From Halobacterium sp. DL1 (lineage in GTDB: Archaea; Halobacteriota; Halobacteria; Halobacteriales; Halobacteriaceae): 64,000 bases of DNA. Below are positions 26,641 through 35,319 of the stretch, in pieces (within the stretch, counting starts at the first letter, position 1; each line of letters starts with the position of its first letter). Where the stretch lies: the NCBI GenBank assembly GCA_000230955.3, contig CP007060.1:124001-188000 (forward strand). Reading direction: 5' to 3'. The translations under genes and the position numbers were made by a program. A model generated the notes under the pieces. The model saw only the letters and a list, made by a program, of their open reading frames with translations. It was not told the origin of the DNA and did no database searches.

Positions 26641-27621
26641 ATGGACACCCACGAACTCGTCACTCGGAACGCGGCGGAGGTCGTGACCGAGGAGGAGGTC
26701 GAGGCGCTGGCCGACGACCCCGAGGGGAAGCGGGCGTACGTCGGCTACGAGCCCTCCGGCGTCCTCCACCTCGGCCACCTGCTCACCGCGAACAAGCTCA
26801 TCGACCTGCAGGACGCCGGCATCGAGGTCGTCGTGCTGCTGGCGGACGTCCACGCCTACCTCAACGACAAGGGGACCTTCGAGGAGATCCGCGAGACGGC
26901 CGAGCAGATGAAGGCCCAGTTCCTCGCCTACGGCCTCGACGAGGAGCAGACGGAGTTCGTCCTCGGCAGCGACTACCAGCTCGACGAGGACTACGAACTC
27001 GACCTCCACGCCCTCCAGGTGGAGACGTCGCTGAAGCGCGCCCAGCGCGCGATGGCCGAGATACAGAGCGGCGAGACGGCGAAGGTGAGCCACGTCGTCT
27101 ACCCGCTGATGCAGGCCCTCGACATCGAGTACCTCGACGTCGACCTCGCCATCGGCGGCCTCGACCAGCGGAAGGTCCACATGCTCGCCCGCGAGGAACT
27201 CCCGAGCCTCGGCTACGAGAAGCGGCCCGCGCTCCACACGCCAATCATCGGCGACCTCACGACGGGCGAGGGGAAGATGAGCTCCAGCGAGGGCGTCAGC
27301 ATCTCCATGGAGGACTCCACCGAGGAGCTCGCCGAGAAGGTGAACTCGGCGTTCTGCCCGCCCGAGCGCGACCCGGAGGGCGACCTCGTCAACCCCGTGC
27401 TCGAACTGTTCCAGTACCACGTCTTCCCGCGCTTCGAGACGGTCGTCGTCGAGCGCCCCGACGAGTACGGCGGGGACCTCTCCTACGACGACTACGAGTC
27501 GCTCGCCGACGACCTGGAGTCCGGCGAACTCCACCCCGCGGACGCGAAGGGCGCGCTCGCCGACTACCTCGACGAACTCGTCGCGCCGGGCCGCCAGCGC
27601 CTCCGTGAACTCCGCGACTGA
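26641..27621 (+). CDS. tyrS: Tyrosyl-tRNA synthetase
   Basis: A 326-residue class I synthetase of the archaeal/eukaryotic type, which joins tyrosine to tRNA-Tyr. Seen: the tyrosine pocket YVGYEPSG (about 33-40), the HIGH-box variant HLGH (about 44-47), the QVETSLKRAQRAM helix, the QALDIEYLDVDLAIGGLDQRK substrate region, and the class I KMSSS loop (about 215, GKMSSSEG). Length is typical. The downstream neighbour is a winged-helix gene, an arrangement repeated after trpS1 at 33-35 kb. Confidence 0.97.
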   Translation: MDTHELVTRNAAEVVTEEEVEALADDPEGKRAYVGYEPSGVLHLGHLLTANKLIDLQDAGIEVVVLLADVHAYLNDKGTFEEIRETAEQMKAQFLAYGLDEEQTEFVLGSDYQLDEDYELDLHALQVETSLKRAQRAMAEIQSGETAKVSHVVYPLMQALDIEYLDVDLAIGGLDQRKVHMLAREELPSLGYEKRPALHTPIIGDLTTGEGKMSSSEGVSISMEDSTEELAEKVNSAFCPPERDPEGDLVNPVLELFQYHVFPRFETVVVERPDEYGGDLSYDDYESLADDLESGELHPADAKGALADYLDELVAPGRQRLRELRD

Positions 27622-27649
27622 AACCGGTCGGTCGGCCGCTCCGTCTCGC

Positions 27650-27693
27650 GACGACTCGACGACGACTCGACGACGACTCGACGACGACTCGAC
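27650..27693 (+). repeat. Four tandem 11-bp repeats upstream of a winged-helix gene
   Basis: Exactly four copies of gacgactcgac (27650-27660, 27661-27671, 27672-27682, 27683-27693), then a partial gacg. The array ends about 10 nt upstream of the TATA element of the winged-helix gene. The 11-bp period is close to one helical turn, so repeated protein contacts on one face of the DNA are possible. Confidence 0.8.
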
Positions 27694-27702
27694 GACGCCA
27701 CG

Positions 27703-27733: not shown

Positions 27734-28603
27734 ATGTCCGCGCCGGACTTCGAGGCGACGGCGGACGCGTTCGGTATGCTCGCCGACCCCGTCCGCGTCG
27801 AGATACTGGCGACGCTGTGGCGCCTGGAGTCCGCCCCGGTGCCGTACTCCGAACTCCGGGACGAAGTCGGCCTGCGGGACTCGGGCCGGTTCAACTACCA
27901 CCTCACGAAGCTCACTGGCCAGTTCGTCGAGAAGGCCGACGACGGCTACCGCCTCCGTCCCTCGGGGATGGTGGTGTTGAACGCCATCTACGCCGGGTCG
28001 TACGTCGACGCGCCGGTCCGCGACGGCCTGGACGTCGGCGGCCACTGTCCGACCTGCGGGGACGCGCTCGTCGGCGAGTACGACGCCGGGATGTTCCGCG
28101 TCCACTGCGAGGACTGCGAGGACCAGTTGTTCATGCTGTCGTTCCCACCCCGGGGGGTCACGCGCCGCGACGACGACGAACTGCTAGAGGCCATCTCCAT
28201 CTACACGAGGGCCCACACCCGTCGCTCGAACAGCGGGCTCTGCCCGTTCTGTGGCGGGTCGATGGCGATGTGGCTGGACGTGGACGCGGACAGCGACCTC
28301 CCGATGTCCGCGCTCGTCTACTCGGACTGCGCGAACTGCGGGGCCGAGAACCGTTCGAGCGTCGGGTTCTCCGTCCTCGAACACCCCGCAGTCGCCGGCT
28401 TCCTCCACGACCAGGGCGTCCCGCCGGACGCGCCACCGTGGCGCTTCGACTGGTGTCTCAGTGACGAAGCGCTGACCGTCGCGTCCAGCGACCCACCCCG
28501 TGTCCACCTCGACGTCACGGTGGACGACGACGGCGAGACGCTCCGGGTTACCGTGGGCGAGGACGGGCGCGTGGCCGAGACGGAGCGCGTCGACGCCGAC
28601 TGA
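27734..28603 (+). CDS. Winged-helix regulator with two zinc ribbons (tyrS-linked)
   Basis: A 289-residue protein. The first 75 residues form an ArsR-like winged helix (DAFGMLADPVRVEILATLWR, then RDSGRFNYHLTKLTGQFVEK). Two zinc-ribbon-like modules follow: CPTC...CEDC (about 104-130) and CPFC...CANC (about 174-210). The C-terminal domain is beta-rich and acidic. It is paralogous to the gene at 34513-35319, sharing the SGRFNYHL recognition-helix segment and the ribbon layout. It is probably a DNA-binding regulator; the signal is unknown. The start at 27734 is supported by the TATA spacing; the longer frame reads through the 11-bp repeats. Confidence 0.85.
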   Translation: MSAPDFEATADAFGMLADPVRVEILATLWRLESAPVPYSELRDEVGLRDSGRFNYHLTKLTGQFVEKADDGYRLRPSGMVVLNAIYAGSYVDAPVRDGLDVGGHCPTCGDALVGEYDAGMFRVHCEDCEDQLFMLSFPPRGVTRRDDDELLEAISIYTRAHTRRSNSGLCPFCGGSMAMWLDVDADSDLPMSALVYSDCANCGAENRSSVGFSVLEHPAVAGFLHDQGVPPDAPPWRFDWCLSDEALTVASSDPPRVHLDVTVDDDGETLRVTVGEDGRVAETERVDAD

Positions 28604-33064: not shown

Positions 33065-34198
33065 ATGACAGACGACTCCGTCACGCCGTACGCCGTCGAG
33101 GGCGACGTCGACTACGAGAAACTGCTCGCCCGCTTCGGCGCGGACGCACTGGCTGACGACCAACGCGAACGATTCCCCGACCACCCACTGGTGCGCCGCG
33201 GCCTGTTCTACGCGGGCCGCGGTGTCGACGACTTCCTCGACGCCGAGGTGCAGTCCATCGTCACCGGCATCGGGCCGTCCGGCCCGATGCACCTCGGCCA
33301 CGCGATGGTGTTCTACTTCGCGAAGCGCCTGCAGGACGAACTCGGCGCCCGCGTCTACGTCCCGCTCTCGGACGACGAGAAGTACTGGTTCAAGGACCAG
33401 ACGCCCGCGGAGACGGGCGACTACCTCCGGGAGAACCTGCGGGACCTGCTCGCCGTCGGCTTCGACCCCGACCTGACGCGCTTCGTCGTGGACACGAAAG
33501 ACGCCGACGTGGTCTACCCGCTGGCGACCGCGTTCGGGAAGGACATCACGCACTCGACGCTGGAGAGCGTCTACGGGACGCCCGAGAACGTCGGTCAAGG
33601 GTTCTACCCCGCGGTCCAGACGGCCCACCTGCTGCTCCCCCAGCTGGTCCACGGCGAGCACGAGACGCTCGTCCCCATCGCGGTGGACCAGGACCCCCAC
33701 GTGCGGGTGAGCCGCGACGTCGCCGCGAAAGCCAGATACCCCGTCGGGAAGCCCGGCGCGCTGCTGATGCAGTTCCTCCCGTCGCTCGGCGGCCCCGGGA
33801 AGATGAGCAGTTCCGAGGGCGTCGCCATCAGGCTGACCGACGACCCCGACACCGTCCGGCAGAAGATACGCAAGCACGCCTACACGGGCGGGCAGTCCAG
33901 CGTCGAGGCCCACCGCGAGCAGGGCGGCGACCCCGAGGTTGACGTCCCCTTCCAGTACATGTCCGCGTTCTTCGAACCCGACGACGACGAACTCGCGCGC
34001 GTCGAGCGGGAGTACCGGGCGGGCGACCTGCTCTCGGGGGAACTGAAGGAACTCGCCGCCGACCGCATCGTCGAGTTCCTCGAGGGCCACCAGGACCGGC
34101 GCGACGAACTCGACGACGTCGAGGCGGAACTCCCGGCCTACCGCCTCACCGAGAACGAGCGCGGGCGCGCGAGGGACGCCGTCGGCTTCGGCTACTGA
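33065..34198 (+). CDS. trpS1: Tryptophanyl-tRNA synthetase, first copy
   Basis: A 377-residue class I synthetase of the archaeal/eukaryotic type, charging tRNA-Trp. Seen: GIGPSGPMHLGHAM with the HLGH box (about 76-79), the PLSDDEKYWFK loop, the PIAVDQDPHVRVSRDVAAK substrate region (about 200-218) and GKMSSSEG (about 245). A second, longer TrpRS is encoded at 59054-60607; two TrpRS genes are known in Halobacteria. Its last six codons (GTC GGC TTC GGC TAC TGA) form the first unit of the 32-bp tandem array that follows, so the gene end itself seeded the repeats. Confidence 0.96.
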   Translation: MTDDSVTPYAVEGDVDYEKLLARFGADALADDQRERFPDHPLVRRGLFYAGRGVDDFLDAEVQSIVTGIGPSGPMHLGHAMVFYFAKRLQDELGARVYVPLSDDEKYWFKDQTPAETGDYLRENLRDLLAVGFDPDLTRFVVDTKDADVVYPLATAFGKDITHSTLESVYGTPENVGQGFYPAVQTAHLLLPQLVHGEHETLVPIAVDQDPHVRVSRDVAAKARYPVGKPGALLMQFLPSLGGPGKMSSSEGVAIRLTDDPDTVRQKIRKHAYTGGQSSVEAHREQGGDPEVDVPFQYMSAFFEPDDDELARVEREYRAGDLLSGELKELAADRIVEFLEGHQDRRDELDDVEAELPAYRLTENERGRARDAVGFGY

Positions 34199-34464
34199 CT
34201 GCACCACGCTGCGTCGGCTTCGGCTACTGACTGCACCACGGCGCGTCGGCTTCGGCTACTGACTGCACCACGCTGCGTCGGCTTCGGCTACTGACTGCAC
34301 CACGCTGCGTCGGCTTCGGCTACTGACTGCACCACGGCGCGTCGGCTTCGGCTACTGACTGCACCACGCTGCGTCGGCTTCGGCTACTGACTGCACCACG
34401 CTGCGTCGGCTTCGGCTACTGACTGCACCACGCTGCGTCGGCTTCGGCTACTGACTGCACCACG
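34181..34464 (+). repeat. Nine-copy 32-bp tandem array seeded by the trpS1 3' end
   Basis: A 28-nt conserved core starting gtcggcttcggctactgact recurs at 34181, 34213, 34245, 34277, 34309, 34341, 34373, 34405 and 34437, exactly 32 nt apart. The four-nt joint is ctgc, gcgc, ctgc, ctgc, gcgc, ctgc, ctgc, ctgc, so three-unit blocks gcgc-ctgc-ctgc occur twice. The first copy is the end of trpS1 including its TGA. Cores are identical, which points to recent expansion. The array fills most of the 314-nt gap to the next gene. Confidence 0.97.
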
Positions 34465-34512
34465 CCTCCGCGCGGCGCAACGCTGAAGCCCCCGATGGCC
34501 CACTCTTGAGAC

Positions 34513-35319
34513 ATGAGCGAGGACGCCGAGGACGCGTTCGCCGCCGTCGCCGACGGACTCCGCGTGCGCATCCTCAGGGAACTCTGGGACGCCGAGGACC
34601 CCCTCTCGTTCTCGGCGCTGCGCGACCGCGTCGATGTCCGTGACTCCGGCCGGTTCAACTACCACCTGGGCGAACTTCGCGGCCGGTTCGTCGAGAAGGG
34701 AGAGGACGGCTACACGCTCCGGTACGCGGGCACCAGAGTCGTCGGCGGGCTCTACTCCGGCGCGTACACCGAGGAGACGTCGCTCGGCCCGGTCCCGGTC
34801 GAGGGCCACTGCTCGCACTGCGGCGGCGACCTGGAAGCCCGCTACGAGGACGACCACGGCTACGTCGACTGCACCGACTGCGAGGTGTCCGTCCTGGCGG
34901 GCGCCGTTCCCCCGGCGTTCGTCGAGGACCGCGAGGACGACCTCTCGGGCGCGCTCGACGGCTTCCTCCGGACCAAACTGCGGGAGGTGAACGCCGGTTT
35001 CTGCACGGAGTGCAGCGGCCCCACCGCCGGACGGCTGGCGGACGGCGACCTCGGGCCACGGGCGGTCTTCGAGTGCGAACGCTGCGGCGGGGAGTTCCAG
35101 GGCCTCGCGGCGGTCGTCGCGCTCGACCACACGGCGGTCGTCTCCTTCTACCACGACCACGGCCGCGATATCCGCGGTATCCCAATCTGGGACGTCGACT
35201 GGCTCGCAGACGCGGCGTTCGACGGCGACTGCGCGGTCGTCACCGTCGAACTGGACGACGACGCACTGGCGCTCACTCTCGACGAGGACCTCGCTGTCGT
35301 CGGTGCGGAACGCGCGTGA
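34513..35319 (+). CDS. Winged-helix regulator with two zinc ribbons (trpS1-linked)
   Basis: A 268-residue paralogue of the tyrS-linked regulator. It has a winged helix at residues 1-72 (ADGLRVRILRELWD, RDSGRFNYHLGELRGRFVEK), zinc-ribbon-like CSHC...CTDC (about 99-122) and CTEC...CERC (about 163-195), and a beta-rich C-terminal domain with an HDHGRD segment. It starts about 48 nt after the tandem array, with no clear TATA box between, so expression from within or upstream of the array is possible. DNA binding is inferred; the regulated genes are unknown. Confidence 0.85.
   Translation: MSEDAEDAFAAVADGLRVRILRELWDAEDPLSFSALRDRVDVRDSGRFNYHLGELRGRFVEKGEDGYTLRYAGTRVVGGLYSGAYTEETSLGPVPVEGHCSHCGGDLEARYEDDHGYVDCTDCEVSVLAGAVPPAFVEDREDDLSGALDGFLRTKLREVNAGFCTECSGPTAGRLADGDLGPRAVFECERCGGEFQGLAAVVALDHTAVVSFYHDHGRDIRGIPIWDVDWLADAAFDGDCAVVTVELDDDALALTLDEDLAVVGAERA

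Follow-up and report, generated by a model that had tools for sequence, protein, structure and literature searches.

A probable young minisatellite grown from the end of trpS1 in Halobacterium sp. DL1

In Halobacterium sp. DL1, most of the space between trpS1 and the winged-helix gene that follows it is taken up by a tandem array of 32-bp units, the first of which begins inside the coding sequence of trpS1. This raises two questions, namely where the array came from and whether it does anything for the genes on its two sides. The analysis was made on a window of 64,000 nucleotides, in which the features of the locus are the following.

33065..34198, + strand: trpS1, tryptophanyl-tRNA synthetase, 377 aa, ending ...DAVGFGY* (ORF, Pfam tRNA-synt_1b)
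34180..34465, no strand: tandem array, 32 bp × 8.9 (direct reading, TRF, script)
34209..34212, no strand: first joint between cores, type A, ctgc (direct reading)
34241 (gcgc), 34273 (ctgc), 34305 (ctgc): joints 2-4 (direct reading)
34337 (gcgc), 34369 (ctgc), 34401 (ctgc), 34433 (ctgc): joints 5-8 (direct reading)
34465-34468: cctc after the ninth core, end of the array (direct reading)
34476..34492, + strand: BRE/TATA-like element of the winged-helix gene, approximately ggcgcaacgctgaagcc (ungapped alignment on the ATG)
34513..35319, + strand: winged-helix protein, 268 aa (ORF, Pfam DUF7347 and DUF7351; the match to HTH_20 is marginally under the cut-off)

The 28-nt core of the array, GTCGGCTTCGGCTACTGACTGCACCACG, is identical in nine of nine units, which start at 34181 + 32n by direct reading and by script, and TRF delimits the array as 34180-34465, with period 32, 8.9 copies, and a score of 544. 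The first-pass annotation had described nine such cores at an exact spacing of 32 nt, and direct reading, TRF, and the script all agree with it. The units match at 96%, with no indels (TRF and script). Identity at lag 32 is 96%, whereas 2000 shuffles average 28% and reach 37% at most, which excludes chance as an explanation of the array. The joints between cores are of two types, A (ctgc) and B (gcgc), and succeed each other as A B A A B A A A. The order that had been reported for them is real (ABA ABA AA), but they do not differ as whole four-base joints, because variation is confined to unit positions 30-31 (CT vs GC), i.e., to two of the four bases. The order ABA ABA points to the duplication of a block of three units, and the identity of the cores implies either a recent origin or active homogenisation. 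In the flanks of the array, the script found neither an obvious source for the bases that distinguish A from B nor any convincing partial repeat. The first half of unit 1 consists of the last five sense codons of trpS1 plus TGA, in agreement with the earlier statement that the last six codons of the gene lie in the first core. Head-to-tail arrangement, a unit within the range of 10–100 bp, and high identity (32 bp × 8.9) are the traits of a minisatellite.

A period of 32 is no multiple of three, so that, with one stop per unit on either strand, no reading frame stays open beyond three units. Stop codons interrupt the array in all six frames, and given this and the period a satellite coding for an amino-acid repeat is rejected. 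Folding of the array as single-strand DNA is no better than that of shuffled sequences, which leads to the rejection of a DNA hairpin driving slippage. Folding as RNA is likewise no better than shuffles and there is no Rfam match in the array; a structured RNA is rejected on these grounds.

The genome assembly is composed of two contigs (2.85 Mb and about 0.316 Mb), with 99.8% completeness. TRF was run on 2.8 Mb of the chromosome, outside of which lie about 47 kb of chromosome and the 316-kb second contig, and the exact unit was searched for in the whole genome, second contig included. In the 2.8 Mb scanned, the array has the top TRF score and is the strongest tandem repeat, as well as the only strong near-identical one whose period is no multiple of three; among arrays with such a period and at least 2.5 copies, the next has a score of 99. 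The same chromosome also holds a near-identical repeat (98%) of 55 bp × 2.4, a period not divisible by three either, at G000:C1:2499647-2499780. The whole genome contains nine exact matches to the unit, all of them within the array. With comparison genomes taken at one per species, the unit is absent, even allowing two mismatches, from 391 other genomes of the order. Neither viral contigs nor plasmids contain a match to it, and a mobile or viral origin of the array is rejected for this reason. The unit is found at a single locus and not interspersed in the manner of MIRU elements, and a CRISPR array is rejected because the joints are only four bases long and of two types.

A resemblance to the trpS1 end was found in two other Halobacterium genomes, G004 and G002 (L195 and L197), where CTGC follows a gene of the enolase superfamily whose product ends in HVGFG[YF]*. 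In G004 this gene end matches that of trpS1 at 30 of 33 bases, past the stop codon. No second gene ending in VGFG[YF]* occurs in 2.8 Mb of the DL1 genome. The match, 18 shared bases plus CTGC, is probably a coincidence that results from the codon preference of haloarchaea. A further match (L196) concerns a coding EA-rich repeat that is unrelated to the array.

The comparison of the trpS1 3′ region in related genomes, which the first-pass annotation had proposed, bears directly on the origin of the array. Full-length trpS1 orthologues in congeners are 83-92% identical, and congeners with a full-length match have one trpS1 end and no array. Hence, the first half of the unit, which is this end, is of local origin. 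The post-stop half shows no conservation in relatives, where the gene pair is kept without any array. In five congeners (G002, G003, G004, G005, and G007) the winged-helix gene lies directly behind trpS1, and the spacer between them is roughly 50-115 bp long, as judged from coordinates and sequence. The spacer of DL1 has 314 bp, which become 58 bp if eight units of 32 bp are removed. This indicates that tandem duplication on the spot extended a spacer of ordinary length, and the array is probably a local, species-private, and young expansion in a tolerant spacer. The earlier suggestion of a recent expansion at a slippage locus fits these data: one locus, near-identical units, and absence from every congener examined.

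In Halobacterium bonnevillei (L018), the trpS1 stop codon lies in a degenerate two-copy tandem duplication with 34-bp spacing, 22 of 25 positions being identical. It covers positions -15 to +10 around the stop codon and again 34 bp further on, and 0.4% of random 180-nt windows from the DL1 genome score at least as high, with 18 loci tested. This old duplication is apparently independent of the 32-bp array.

We consider the DL1 array to be a young, species-private minisatellite, that is, a locus of the VNTR type, with a probability of about 0.8. In the ancestral state, trpS1 would have been followed by an ordinary spacer of about 58 bp and by a winged-helix gene that had a promoter of its own. 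A stretch of about 32 bp, taking in the trpS1 end and the first part of the spacer, would then have been duplicated in tandem, and the array would have grown by replication slippage, unequal recombination, or both, with whole blocks also being copied, as the ABA ABA order suggests. At any length, the first unit would restore the end of trpS1 and its stop codon, and the promoter element would remain downstream of every unit. Because the trpS1 end is present in every unit and the promoter lies downstream, gain or loss of whole units should alter neither of the two proteins, nor the core promoter, so that the array would be tolerated and is probably near-neutral. Most likely it has no dedicated job, and strain-to-strain variation in its length is plausible. 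Published work on archaea offers suitable processes. PolB and PolD of P. abyssi slip in vitro (PMC4134008). Halobacterium and Haloferax are polyploid (PMC1762399, PMC8223754), and exponentially growing Halobacterium salinarum has some 25 copies of its chromosome (PMC1762399). Haloferax also carries out intermolecular gene conversion very efficiently (PMC8223754). By analogy with these systems, slippage, polyploidy, and gene conversion would make both the expansion and the homogenisation of the array easy to explain.

Whether the array nevertheless serves the winged-helix gene depends in part on the promoter of this gene. The first-pass annotation found no other clear promoter for it, which is wrong. 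An ungapped alignment on the winged-helix ATG reveals a BRE/TATA-like element at a fixed distance from the start codon in eight Halobacterium species (in other species, ggcggaaccctgaagcc, ggcggaaacctgaaacc, ggccccacctctaagacc, and similar), including two, G010 and G006, in which trpS1 is not the immediate neighbour. The TATA-like part is about 27 nt upstream of the ATG, and in DL1 the element is intact and separated from the end of the array by about 10 bp. Haloarchaeal promoters have a BRE/TATA layout, and 72% of transcripts are leaderless in Haloferax (PMC4983044); the layout of the element fits both such promoters and leaderless transcription. From its position and conservation, it is a putative working promoter. 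With this conserved element just downstream, the array does not stand in for a missing promoter, and a role as the promoter of the winged-helix gene is rejected.

A regulatory function could be exerted otherwise, if the number of repeats tuned winged-helix transcription or trpS1 read-through by way of bound proteins or promoter spacing. The location of the array directly upstream of the conserved promoter element would suit such a length-variable device, and a unit of 32 bp measures about three turns of the helix. A similarly placed repeat, the rnc-fpg1 VNTR of Mycobacterium tuberculosis, goes with higher fpg1 mRNA when longer (PMC2734929), and the paralogous tyrS-winged-helix spacer of DL1 carries an array as well, of 11-bp units. 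Against this, the 8-, 10-, and 12-mers of the unit show no excess elsewhere in the 2.8 Mb, where they occur at counts expected from a Markov model, the post-stop half of the unit is unconserved, relatives keep the gene pair without the array, and the 11-bp and 32-bp units share at most 8 of 11 bases. The binding array for a regulator put forward in the first-pass annotation thus finds no support, and neither enrichment nor conservation in congeners points to operators or iterons. Overall a tuning role is unlikely, and a small share of the probability is kept for it because the length of the M. tuberculosis VNTR tracks expression.

The second array deserves to be considered together with its neighbours.

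26641-27621: tyrS
27645..27697, no strand: tandem array, 11 bp × 4.9, CTCGACGACGA (TRF, follow-up comparison)
27734-28603: paralogous winged-helix gene, DUF7347/DUF7351

This pair lies 6.5 kb upstream of the trpS1-winged-helix pair and is homologous to it: tyrS and trpS1 both belong to Pfam tRNA-synt_1b, and both winged-helix genes are of the DUF7347/DUF7351 type. The spacer between tyrS and its winged-helix gene has 112 bp and holds the 11-bp array, which is private to DL1 among 13 Halobacterium genomes (absent from the 12 others). Its unit is unrelated to the 32-mer, with 8 of 11 bases in common at best. By match coordinates, the corresponding gap is of about 16 bp in G010 and of about 290-330 bp in G007, G002, and G005. 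One could imagine that the spacers which separate genes of class-Ic aminoacyl-tRNA synthetases (tyrS, trpS1) from paralogous DUF7347/DUF7351 winged-helix genes repeatedly grow arrays, with periods of about one and about three helical turns, as adjustable operators or spacers that control the winged-helix genes. Both pairs carry arrays, unrelated to each other, and H. bonnevillei has its old two-copy duplication at the trpS1 stop codon; we regard this idea as quite improbable. The second array and the H. bonnevillei duplication are post hoc observations that may reflect chance or a local proneness to duplication. The presence of a broadly similar array in the paralogous spacer does count against the preferred reading, since it could hint at a role or at a hot spot, and so does the lack of an obvious source in the flanks for the two bases that tell A from B joints.

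Assemblies are known to go wrong at tandem repeats, and the true locus might have one or a few copies only. This is very unlikely for a two-contig assembly with 99.8% completeness, and a simple mistake of the assembler would hardly create ordered joint variants; repeats of this sort are reported to be often collapsed in assembly (PMC9879509), which makes undercounting the likelier mistake. A function in terminating or buffering transcription at the 3′ end of trpS1, the transcript-ending role proposed in the first-pass annotation, would have the right position directly behind the stop codon and is highly improbable, as there are no runs of three or more T between 34151 and 34700, no U-rich tract, no terminator-like site or hairpin at the array, and, as stated above, neither an excess of RNA folding over shuffles nor an Rfam match.

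A minisatellite of this sort is a less usual example, not a new kind of repeat. The short-repeat satellites of Halobacteria have periods that are mostly multiples of three and are probably in coding sequence (Subirana & Messeguer 2019, PMC6749651). As in the prokaryotic satellites and minisatellites described in that work, the trpS1 array is short, local, and species-specific, with a non-coding period and no sequence relatives; unlike the mostly coding ones of Halobacteria, it is non-coding, with near-identical units. It would be a small, clear-cut case of a young minisatellite in the chromosome of a haloarchaeon, a setting in which most of the satellites described are coding. It could be of use in strain typing and in testing how polyploid archaea expand and homogenise repeats, for which it is well suited because single units can be followed by means of the two joint variants. 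Mycobacterial MIRU elements are also intergenic repeats, in tandem at polymorphic loci, but they are interspersed at 41 loci, whereas the 32-bp unit occupies one. Two systems are close precedents. The first is ETR-F/VNTR3239 of M. tuberculosis, in the rnc-fpg1 spacer (PMC2734929), which is likewise a lineage-specific array between a housekeeping gene and the following gene, lengthening a spacer that is short in relatives, in that case other mycobacteria. Its strain variation has been measured, and the length of its repeat shows a modest correlation with how strongly the downstream gene is expressed; it differs in having a more complex unit structure and in starting 40 bp past the stop codon and not inside the gene. 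The second is provided by the tandem repeats of Borgs (PMC9879509), which are near-perfect, can begin within the ends of ORFs, and are private and recently formed, all of which they share with the trpS1 array, as the intergenic ones share a unit length not divisible by three (mostly, in Borgs). Borg repeats are numerous per genome, A-rich, and carried by a giant extrachromosomal element; in contrast, the trpS1 array is single, GC-rich, without flanking partial repeats, and located on a haloarchaeal chromosome.
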